DNA of 27,346 nucleotides from a virus. The notes under the pieces are model-generated. The model saw only the letters and a program-made list of their open reading frames with translations, was not told the origin of the DNA and did not search any database. Positions 10,086 through 16,804 of the stretch are shown one piece after another; the stretch's first letter is position 1, and every line of letters begins with the position of its first letter. The stretch covers positions 1 to 27,346 of the IMG/VR virus record IMGVR_UViG_3300005976_000009; one strand, 5' to 3'. The translations under genes and the position numbers were made by a program.

Positions 10086-10883
10086 TTACGCATTCTTCAA
10101 TAGCTTAATAAGTTTTGCAGCTATGTGTTCGTATGCTGACTCTGCTGCTGCTTGCCACGCAGACTCTGCTGCTGCCTCTGCTGCCGACCCTGCTGACTGT
10201 GCTGCCTCTGCTGACCATACTGCTGACCATGCTGGCCGTGCAGACTCTGCTGACCATGCTGCTTGCCACGCAGACTCTGCTGCTGACCATACTGCAGACT
10301 CTGCTGCCTTTGCTGCTGCTTGCCATCCTGACTCAGCTGCTGACTGTGCTGCCTCTGCTGCCTCTGCTGCTGCTGACCATCCTGACGCTGATGCCGACTC
10401 TGCTAAAGACCATGCTGACCGTGCCACCTCTTCTGCTGACTCTGCTGCCGACTCTGCTGCCGACTCTGCTAAAGACCATGCTGACTCATCAATCTCTTCT
10501 CGTTTCGAACGACTAAGTAACTCAACAATCGAGTCAATCGCCGCTTTCCCATCATCGAATGCATATTGTCTGCAACCAAATGTTGGGTCAGTTAAGACAG
10601 CAATCTTCATATCAATTACGACCTTTACGACCTGTGACAAATCTTTTCCAGCTGGAATTGAATTATAAAAGTCAAATTGATCTGCTTTATTTTTGGGTAG
10701 GTTTTTAAATATTGTATCACCAAGATACAATATAGCAACAGCAACATCGAGTTTCTCTTGGAATTTTTCACCAAGTATTTGGCAAACAGCGAATTCACCA
10801 GAGCCTACATTGCAGCCTTGATTTTTTTCGATGTTCTGGACAACGTGTCTTTTGAATTTTGGATTATTATTGTATGATTGCAT
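10086..10883 (-). CDS. Protein with globular N-domain and Ala/Ser/Trp pentad repeats
   Basis: 265 residues. Residues 1-125 look globular (FGCRQYAFDDGKAAIDSIVEL). Residues about 130-250 are a low-complexity array built from units such as SAWSLAESA, AESAA and WSAAESAWQA with a rough 5-residue period. The C-terminus YEHIAAKLIKLLKNA returns to normal helix. Proteins of this style occur in phages and bacteria, but no function is established that I know of. The array is encoded by CTGCTG-rich DNA prone to slippage. A 10-bp tandem duplication at the start creates a second, out-of-frame upstream ATG (10893). Confidence 0.6.
   Translation of the reverse strand: MQSYNNNPKFKRHVVQNIEKNQGCNVGSGEFAVCQILGEKFQEKLDVAVAILYLGDTIFKNLPKNKADQFDFYNSIPAGKDLSQVVKVVIDMKIAVLTDPTFGCRQYAFDDGKAAIDSIVELLSRSKREEIDESAWSLAESAAESAAESAEEVARSAWSLAESASASGWSAAAEAAEAAQSAAESGWQAAAKAAESAVWSAAESAWQAAWSAESARPAWSAVWSAEAAQSAGSAAEAAAESAWQAAAESAYEHIAAKLIKLLKNA
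10130..10490 (-). repeat. CTG-rich degenerate repeat array inside CDS
   Basis: Degenerate 12-18 bp units with the core GACTCTGCTGCC / GACCATGCTG (plus strand) encode the Ala/Ser/Glu/Trp repeats. The base composition is clearly more GC-rich than the flanks. Confidence 0.8.
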
Positions 10884-11294: not shown

Positions 11295-11534
11295 TCAAAT
11301 AATACTAGAAAGTAGCTTCTGTATCGCTTGAACACCCTTTGGAGTAACCATTGTTTTATTATTTATTCGTGAATTTCCTAGCCCATTTTGATATACTTGC
11401 ACCTTAATTTCAAACCAACCTCTATCAATGTATTCTTGATATGGCTCATTATTGTATCGTAGCACGTTATTATCTCGTAAGAACTGGAATAGCTTATTAC
11501 GTCCTGTGCCTATAACTTTAGCGACTGCGGTCAT
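11295..11534 (-). CDS. KilAC-domain antirepressor, C-terminal part
   Basis: 79 residues in frame. GTGRNKLFQFLRDNNVL, then YNNEPYQEYIDRGWFEIK, and finally KTMVTPKGVQAIQKLL match the phage antirepressor KilAC (ANT) domain, a DNA-binding module in antirepressors. The same frame continues upstream without a start, and KPKILFYDKVAEAKNTIE there also belongs to the domain. The ATG at 11534 therefore cuts the domain and is probably not the true start. A -1 shift near 11590-11614 would connect it to an ATG at 11677. A terminator-bearing leader precedes that ATG. Confidence 0.75.
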   Translation of the reverse strand: MTAVAKVIGTGRNKLFQFLRDNNVLRYNNEPYQEYIDRGWFEIKVQVYQNGLGNSRINNKTMVTPKGVQAIQKLLSSII

Positions 11535-11557
11535 TTCAATAGTGTTTTTTGCTTCTG

Positions 11558-11677
11558 CTACTTTGTCATAAAAAAGGATTTTAGGCTTGTCTTCTTTTGC
11601 TTTTCTTTGACTTCGATGAGTGAGAATATACCAGATTGATCTGTTGGTGCAGTGTATGAATCAATTATATTGTTCAT
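11558..11677 (-). pseudogene. N-terminal frame of the KilAC antirepressor, out of frame
   Basis: ATG at 11677 opens a 39-codon frame, starting MNNIIDSYTAPTDQSGIFSL and running through LIEVKEKQK, that stops at TAG 11558-11560. At about codon 27 a -1 shift inside the A-rich tract AAAGAAAAGCAAAAG would continue as KEDKPKILFYDKVAEA into the KilAC domain, giving one protein of about 127 residues. The cause may be a real mutation, recoding or a base-call indel. Confidence 0.5.
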
Positions 11678-11681
11678 GTAT

Positions 11682-11754
11682 AAAAAAATCACGGGCTAGC
11701 AACGACGCAAGACACCCGTGATTTAATTTCGTTGCTATTTAAGTCTTGGTCGTT
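11682..11754 (-). promoter_or_regulatory. Attenuator-like RNA leader of the antirepressor
   Basis: The transcript from the 11761-11789 promoter would start near 11754. A 10-bp terminator stem AAATCACGGG/CCCGTGATTT (11724-11715 with 11695-11686) is followed by a U-run just before the ATG at 11677. The 19-nt loop is complementary to two upstream leader segments: AACGACCAAGAC (11754-11743) pairs with GTCTTGCGTCGTT (one bulge), and TAGCAACGA (11737-11729) pairs with TCGTTGCTA (11705-11697). The two pairings overlap in the loop and compete. This suggests conditional termination. Confidence 0.65.
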
Positions 11755-11760
11755 AAGATT

Positions 11761-11789
11761 ATAATATACGGCGTTTTGTTAGTTGTCAA
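11761..11789 (-). promoter_or_regulatory. Promoter of the antirepressor leader
   Basis: Leftward TTGACA (11789-11784), a 17-bp spacer and TATTAT (11766-11761). It is flanked upstream by the dyad at 11794-11808. Confidence 0.8.
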
Positions 11790-11793
11790 CCCC

Positions 11794-11808
11794 TCGACAT
11801 GATGTCGA
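11794..11808. promoter_or_regulatory. Perfect 15-bp dyad, candidate operator
   Basis: TCGACAT-G-ATGTCGA is a perfect 7+1+7 palindrome that begins 4 bp upstream of the antirepressor -35 box. No second copy was noticed. It is a likely binding site for a dimeric regulator (activator position) or a repressor. Confidence 0.6.
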
Positions 11809-11818
11809 ACCCCAAGAT

Positions 11819-11836
11819 TTCCCCGAATCTGGGGAA
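11819..11836 (-). terminator. GC-rich hairpin after SSB
   Basis: TTCCCC-GAATCT-GGGGAA forms a 6-bp stem just beyond the SSB end. It can alternatively pair over a longer stretch with CCCCAAGATT (11810-11819). There is no clear U-run, so termination is uncertain. Confidence 0.35.
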
Positions 11837-11874
11837 TACTTAAAACGGGAACGTAGCATTAAGTTCTTCCAGAT

Positions 11875-12250: not shown

Positions 12251-12721
12251 TTATTTACTAAGTGCTTTTTTAATTTCTGATAATGTATATTCTTTACCTT
12301 CGATGCTTATAGTTTCTTCTTTTGATTCTTCAATATCAACTATTTCATAATCTCCAAGAACATACTGATCGTCACCGCCAACAAACCAGCCTTGTTTGTA
12401 TTCTTTTTTAGCGCATAAACGAGCATCGTCAGAGATACGAGCATCGCCATAGATACGAGCATCGCCATAGACCCAAGCATCGCCATAGACCTGAGCATCG
12501 CCATAGACCTGAGCATCGCCATAGACCTGAGCATCGCCATAGATACGAGCATCGCCATAGACCCAAGCGTTGCCTTCTTGTGATAAGTTTTTTTCTTTTT
12601 CGATGTATCCTCCGAGTTCTCCTTTAGATACACTACCAAAGTTCTTTAACGCTTTTATTTGATAGAGTGTTACTCCGTTGTGCTGTATAGTTGTGTTAGT
12701 TAGTTCGTATTTTTTAGACAT
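12251..12721 (-). CDS. YGDA-repeat (beta-helix-like) protein
   Basis: 156 residues. The N-terminus (ELTNTTIQHNGVTLYQIKAL, GELGGYIEKEKNLS) and the array of 8-9 six-residue units (VYGDAR, IYGDAQ, VYGDAW) match a widespread phage protein type. The hexapeptide spacing suggests a left-handed beta helix. The C-terminus (about 105-156) is a separate acidic domain with GKEYTLSEIKKAL. No enzymatic function is known to me. The array is encoded by 18-bp DNA repeats. TAA-T-ATG junctions flank it on both sides within the SSB/Rad52 operon. Confidence 0.7.
   Translation of the reverse strand: MSKKYELTNTTIQHNGVTLYQIKALKNFGSVSKGELGGYIEKEKNLSQEGNAWVYGDARIYGDAQVYGDAQVYGDAQVYGDAWVYGDARIYGDARISDDARLCAKKEYKQGWFVGGDDQYVLGDYEIVDIEESKEETISIEGKEYTLSEIKKALSK
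12421..12573 (-). repeat. 18-bp tandem repeats encoding YGDA units
   Basis: On the plus strand the unit is GAGCATCGCCATAGACCT with small changes. Three successive units are nearly identical (about 12492-12545), which suggests recent duplication. Confidence 0.9.
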
Positions 12722-15947: not shown

Positions 15948-16804
15948 TTGGATTACCGTACATGGGGAGTAAACGCAAGTTAGCGTCAAAAATAGTTACA
16001 CATATACTTACAGCTTATCCAGAAACTGAATATGTTTATGACTTATTTGGAGGAGGTGGAGCTATATCTTTTGAGTTTTTGAAACGTAGAAAGAAAGTTA
16101 TATACAATGATCTTAATACAGGTGTTTGTGAATTGCTCAGAAAGATACAAAGAGACGGTGTAACAGATGACTTTTTCAATTGGATTTCAAGAGAAGAATT
16201 TGAGTTATTAAAAAATGGGGATACTTGGAGATCAGGGCTTGCAAAAGTGTGCTGGAGCTTTGGAAACAATCAGTCAGACTACCTATTTGGCAAATCAGTT
16301 GAGCCTATAAAAAAACAAGCACATGATTCCCTTATGGCAAATAGTTATGATAGAACTTCTGCGACAAGAAACAAACTATTAAAGCAGTTTATAGAAGAGA
16401 AGAAGATAGAAGGGAGGTTTGAATTACAGCAATTAGAGCGATTACAGCAATTAGAGCGATTAGAGCGATTACAGCAATTAGAGCATTTAGAGCAATTAGA
16501 GCGATTAGTAATAAGCAATGTATCTTACGAGCAAGTATCAATAACAGCACCTATTGATAAGACTATTATATATCTTGACCCACCTTATTTTAATACAGCT
16601 AAATATCAGGAGCAGGTAGACCACGCAATGCTATACAGCTGGATAGAGCAAAGCAAATATACAATATATCTTAGTAGCTATGAGTCTACGTTGAACTTGG
16701 TAAATTCTTTTGAGCATAGATCCACATTATCAGCAACTGCAAATAACAAAGTCAAAGAAAATTTATACACAAATAAACTTGAAACTAACTATTATTTATT
16801 ATGA
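15944..16804 (+). CDS. dam: D12-class N6-adenine DNA methyltransferase
   Basis: 286 residues. The N-terminal GSKRK segment, AdoMet-binding motif I DLFGGGGA (33-40), ND motif (YNDLN, 54-58) and catalytic DPPY (212-215) identify a Dam-like enzyme that transfers a methyl group to N6 of adenine. It may protect phage DNA from host restriction or time replication. A tandem Leu-rich array (LQQLERL units, about 160-188) is inserted just before the DPPY region. A weak AAAGGA may act as RBS. The recognition site cannot be read from the sequence. Confidence 0.85.
   Translation: MIGLPYMGSKRKLASKIVTHILTAYPETEYVYDLFGGGGAISFEFLKRRKKVIYNDLNTGVCELLRKIQRDGVTDDFFNWISREEFELLKNGDTWRSGLAKVCWSFGNNQSDYLFGKSVEPIKKQAHDSLMANSYDRTSATRNKLLKQFIEEKKIEGRFELQQLERLQQLERLERLQQLEHLEQLERLVISNVSYEQVSITAPIDKTIIYLDPPYFNTAKYQEQVDHAMLYSWIEQSKYTIYLSSYESTLNLVNSFEHRSTLSATANNKVKENLYTNKLETNYYLL
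16423..16506 (+). repeat. 9-bp tandem repeats in Dam
   Basis: In-frame units TTAGAGCGA, TTACAGCAA, TTAGAGCAA and variants encode LER, LQQ and LEQ triplets. Copy number changes would alter the protein length without a frameshift. Confidence 0.85.

Follow-up and report, generated by a model that had tools for sequence, protein, structure and literature searches.

The window analysed here, meaning the whole stretch of DNA presented above, spans the 27,346 bases of an IMG/VR virus record. On its minus strand, between the ssb gene (12249-11875) and a reading frame that encodes a KilAC domain (PF03374), lies a short leader locus with its own promoter and terminator. A rad52-ssb operon (14305-11875) precedes it on the same strand, with the end of ssb being situated 150 nucleotides upstream of the terminator.

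Promoter, leader and downstream reading frames

The promoter (11761-11789, minus strand) is of the sigma-70 type, and is composed of a TTGACA -35 element (11789-11784), a 17-nucleotide spacer and a TATTAT -10 element (11766-11761), corresponding to 11 of 12 consensus matches. Sites with at least 11 of 12 matches occur seven times in the window, as opposed to 1.4 times (standard deviation 1.1) in shuffled sequences, and all seven combine an exact TTGACA with a spacer of 17 nucleotides, so that the TTGACA-17 promoters of this phage are probably real. The near-consensus promoter that an initial annotation had placed before the leader accordingly belongs to a class that is over-represented in the window. 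Immediately 5' of the -35 element is a near-perfect 17-bp dyad, TTCGACATCATGTCGAG (11793-11809), which has a 15-bp palindromic core, is the sole place in the window with three or fewer mismatches, and constitutes a candidate operator; within 11793-11840, it is accompanied by a second dyad of the same candidate status, CCCCAGATT-N6-AATCTTGGGG. A second strong promoter (11286-11258, minus strand) is located 3' of KilAC, and the region that it would drive holds only short ORFs, including one for a hydrophobic peptide of 29 amino acids (MEFIQSDSFQHFLAVLFIIIIIAIFSPTK).

With transcription predicted to begin at approximately 11754, some 7 nucleotides past the -10 element, the leader RNA would extend for 77 nucleotides (11678-11754, minus strand), or approximately 73 in its terminated form. 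It ends in an intrinsic terminator consisting of a 5' arm (AAATCACGGG, 11715-11724), a loop of 19 nucleotides (TGTCTTGCGTCGTTGCTAG, 11696-11714), and a 3' arm (CCCGTGATTT, 11695-11686) that together with the following U-run covers 11679-11695; the 10-bp stem and its UUUUUUU tract are of the usual kind for such a terminator, and the loop is unusually large. The predicted minimum free energy is -18.9 kcal/mol for the leader (z -2.3) and -18.3 kcal/mol for the terminated 73-nucleotide RNA. These dimensions agree with the leader of about 75 nucleotides, ending in a 10-bp terminator and U-run, that had originally been described. An ATG (11677-11675) follows 8 nucleotides past the terminator, a gap too small to accommodate another promoter, and the promoter, leader and terminator immediately precede the only transcription route into the KilAC region.

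That ATG had been taken for the start of KilAC, an assignment that proved incorrect: it opens a frame of 38 codons (ORF38, 11561-11677, minus strand) that is not the KilAC frame and that has no Shine-Dalgarno site. The KilAC (ANT) domain itself (11295-11588, minus strand, 97 amino acids) is recognized by a profile match with an E value of 2.2e-27, and its frame is open from 11660; the first in-frame ATG, at 11534, falls inside the domain, and an intact frame leading from a start codon is absent from the single sequence that covers the region. It is possible that expression of KilAC needs a -1 shift in an A-rich stretch or an internal start, the other possibilities being an assembly error or decay; the gene may, in other words, be frameshifted or decaying. 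No frameshift-stimulating structure was found past the A-rich stretch. The missing Shine-Dalgarno site at ORF38 is no argument against its translation, because such sites are almost absent from the genes of this phage, and the A+T-rich start contexts that prevail across nearly all of those genes (for example, TAACTAAATAATATG) suggest a host with Shine-Dalgarno-independent initiation, although the promoters are sigma-70-like.

Two repetitive coding regions were also noted elsewhere in the window. The interval 10086-10883 (minus strand) encodes a protein built of repeated Ser-Ala-Trp-Glu units (WSAAESA...), and is open in several frames owing to a TGC-rich tandem repeat, while 16422-16508 is a tandem repeat with a 9-bp unit, possibly prone to slippage, within a D12 adenine methyltransferase gene (QLERL repeats).

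Loop complementarity and predicted folding order

The terminator loop is the common pairing partner of two segments of the leader, both of which lie upstream of it on the same strand. The first, S1 (AACGACCAAGAC, 11743-11754), comprises the first 12 nucleotides of the RNA and is predicted to form an early hairpin that precedes the terminator; it can form 12 pairs with the loop, interrupted by one bulge, at -15.4 to -16.6 kcal/mol. The second, S2 (TAGCAACGA, 11729-11737), corresponds to nucleotides 18-26 and can form nine perfect pairs at -12.7 to -13.3 kcal/mol. The partners of S1 and S2 overlap within the loop (at UCGUU), so that the two pairings are mutually exclusive. The pairing of S1 with the loop is by itself only mildly unusual, being equalled in 41 of 2000 and 90 of 5000 dinucleotide shuffles (p ~0.02 as a duplex; p ~0.09 when scored as a prefix minimum free energy). 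The two pairings jointly were matched by none of 5000 shuffles and none of 8000 random phage placements, and of the 54,574 positions in the window at which this geometry can be placed, only the site itself has them; this joint statistic was chosen post hoc, after the claim had been seen, and because its thresholds were taken from the site itself, these figures show how rare the combination is and do not amount to a clean test. The joint complementarity is nevertheless clearly non-random, and the presence of two exclusive upstream partners for the loop, as claimed at the outset, is upheld. The possibility that S1 and S2 represent a repeated DNA operator was considered and rejected, with S1-like sites showing no excess elsewhere and S2-like sites only a slight one.

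Simulated folding of the growing RNA placed the S1:loop pairing at lengths of 54-64 nucleotides (-14.0 kcal/mol, P 0.94-1.0) and the terminator at 66 nucleotides with a probability of 0.88, rising to 1.0 at 70 nucleotides, and it is therefore predicted that S1 pairs with the loop first and then gives way to the terminator. The early S1 hairpin depends upon the start site, for when transcription is begun at least 3 nucleotides further in, folding yields the S2:loop pairing instead. From the predicted start the latter is barely populated in cis (P ~0.05), so that the competition within one molecule reduces to that between S1 and the terminator. The initial annotation had envisaged two competing anti-pairings; the order of S1:loop and terminator bears this out for S1, and the same folding does not sustain it for S2, which on this model is better understood as a further target reached in trans. 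The S1:loop pairing crosses the terminator, and for both to form in full would require a pseudoknot, whose link of 5 nucleotides over 12 pairs is judged, by reasoning, to be of marginal feasibility. Since the S1:loop form leaves the terminator arms free, the strength of any block to termination would depend upon that marginal geometry.

Dimerisation of the leader RNA is predicted to be favoured by 7 kcal/mol over two separate monomers, which, together with the exposed 19-nucleotide loop and the anatomy of a promoter, a 73-nucleotide RNA and a terminator, would also suit an independent small RNA of approximately 73 nucleotides whose targets in trans are other mRNAs, of phage or host, and for which S1 and S2 would only shape or dimerise the molecule. 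Beyond S2, however, no perfect match to the loop of at least 9 nucleotides exists elsewhere in the window, and an RNA of this type leaves the position directly before KilAC unexplained; this alternative is regarded as decidedly unlikely.

Relatives and a survey of KilAC leaders

Searches by blastn in phages and plasmids returned no homologue of the leader, and an exact search with the loop recovered no homologous leader. The same stem with any loop gave 10 matches, all of them in unrelated coding sequence or terminators, and a 17-nucleotide core of the loop gave a single match, ascribed to chance, in G+C-rich coding DNA. Scans of viral contigs with the KilAC protein, terminase, Rad52 and SSB identified only distant phages that lack a leader with this sequence or one close relative, L002, which is 99.9% identical, yet whose contig stops at approximately 12402, short of the leader. 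The putative attenuator leader is without relatives in the collections searched. The L002 contig breaks inside a tandem array (12419-12568) with an 18-bp unit that encodes YGDAQV repeats.

The generality of the arrangement was assessed across 90 KilAC genes and 670 other ORFs of the same loci, by counting terminator hairpins located no more than 45 nucleotides before the start. Such terminators precede seven of the KilAC genes as against six of the other ORFs (Fisher p 2e-4). If only loops greater than 15 nucleotides are counted, the figures are four of the 90 and none of the 670, where the four include the study site itself as well as L054, a weak terminator. With the study window removed, the counts become 6 of 89 for terminators (p ~0.001) and 3 of 89 for those with large loops (p ~0.002). 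The large-loop arrangement thus recurs but is rare, and judging by the survey, KilAC genes with a large-loop terminator directly in front appear to be a class that can be found. In the Oceanospirillum phage GJ44 (L008) and in IMGVR_UViG_3300022208_000010 (L013), a promoter-like sequence, a leader and a large-loop terminator likewise stand directly before a KilAC gene, but their leaders lack sequence similarity to the one studied here and show nothing exceptional in loop complementarity; GJ44 was discarded as an independent case of such complementarity, falling within its genome background (6.8% of placements). The L013 leader (2010-2095; fold z -5.7) is further distinguished by a GGAGG ribosome site that is hidden in the 3' arm of the terminator, with the U-run directly before the ATG.

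The control terminators bear upon a rival account of the locus, in which the hairpin is the ordinary intrinsic terminator of the rad52-ssb operon, the promoter arose by chance in the gap, KilAC is a decaying remnant, and the pairings are functionless. The six controls demonstrate that terminators also occur shortly before the starts of other genes, and the proximity of ssb on the same strand and the disjunction between the ATG and KilAC frames are in keeping with this account as well. The control loops, however, measure 4-8 nucleotides versus 19 in the leader, a strong promoter is interposed between ssb and the terminator, and the joint complementarity is unique in the window. On balance, this account is considered unlikely.

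A putative attenuator and its comparison with known systems

The preferred reading, which is held tentatively and at somewhat less than an even chance, is that the leader is a transcription attenuator controlling expression of the KilAC putative antirepressor region; promoter, terminator, position and joint complementarity are read from the sequence, and the order of structures from folding. In its favour stand the promoter class, the short gap before the ATG, the joint pairings, the folding order, the enrichment of such terminators before KilAC genes and the precedents of IsrK and P4 CI; against it count the absence of a homologous leader, the mild rarity of S1:loop alone, the free terminator arms, the break between the ATG and KilAC frames and the ordinary loop complementarity of GJ44. 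Transcription would start near 11754, and S1, at the 5' end of the leader, would pair first with the future terminator loop, until emergence of the 3' arm allowed the terminator to form and most transcripts to stop at approximately 73 nucleotides, with read-through producing an mRNA that covers ORF38 and KilAC. Once terminated, the RNA would have its loop exposed and could pair, in trans, with either S1 or S2 on nascent transcripts, and since sequestration of S1 would remove the early hairpin, termination would be favoured, and the outcome would be negative feedback on antirepressor synthesis, following the logic of the P4 CI immunity RNA. The compact RNA switch first proposed for the antirepressor is in this way retained as to the promoter, leader and terminator before KilAC and the joint pairings, and given up as to the action of S2 in cis and the ATG as the start of KilAC. 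A more specific version, that of a self-contained RNA immunity switch with a new layout, in which the terminator loop is the antisense element, two exclusive and overlapping targets in the first 26 nucleotides set read-through, S1 is a cis antiterminator and S2 is a landing site in trans, is doubtful. Few cases of small-RNA control of antirepressors are, to our knowledge, on record in phages (C4, sar and IsrK); if the attenuator is real, its 77 nucleotides would unite termination and antisense in one hairpin, and would indicate that such switches arise repeatedly.

C4 RNA is processed, rather than ended by its own terminator loop. Like the C4 RNAs of P1 and P7 (RF01695 and RF03163), the leader stands ahead of an antirepressor operon (KilAC, E 2.2e-27, with the caveat of its frame) and contains two paired segments; unlike them, it has its targets upstream of the loop, whereas those of C4 (a2/b2) are downstream, next to icd. 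Pairing of the leader or loop with the downstream interval 11681-11540, which includes the start of the short ORF, was no better than in shuffles (p 0.47-0.74). The Rfam C4 model (RF01695) found the P1 control at 68.8 bits and gave no match to the leader at the gathering score or at an E value of 10, so that membership in the C4 family was rejected, and the earlier description of the leader as analogous to, and not evidently homologous with, C4 is supported.

In the isrK-orf45-anrP region of Gifsy-1, a short RNA with an intrinsic terminator is followed, upon read-through, by a short ORF and then the antirepressor, and IsrK pairs with the downstream orf45 and activates its translation (PMC4825925). 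The studied locus has the same anatomy, but anatomy only, with a terminated RNA (hairpin 11724-11679), ORF38 and then KilAC; its complementary segments are 5' of the loop, in contrast to the downstream pairing of IsrK. This gene order, shared with isrK-orf45-anrP (PMC4825925) and with P1 c4-icd-ant, would favour translation control of the C4 or IsrK type, in which read-through mRNA would be bound by the short RNA close to the start of ORF38 or KilAC; the absence of downstream pairing above shuffles and of any match to the C4 model both weigh against it, and it is the least probable of the explanations considered.

In P4, the CI RNA is released from the transcript by processing, and its seqB is antisense to both seqA and seqC, which provide an upstream and a downstream target (as described in PMC4825925). 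The leader resembles it in that one segment, the loop, has two complementary sites within the same leader (S1 and S2), and in an effect that is predicted to be on transcription termination. It differs in that both targets are upstream, in that the antisense segment is a terminator loop, and in that an antirepressor region lies 3' of it, as compared with replication genes in P4. P4 CI and IsrK are the nearest known systems in their mode of working. Because the downstream target of both was tested for here and not found, the leader is not a member of either, and by analogy it probably works in a manner like that of P4 CI or IsrK.
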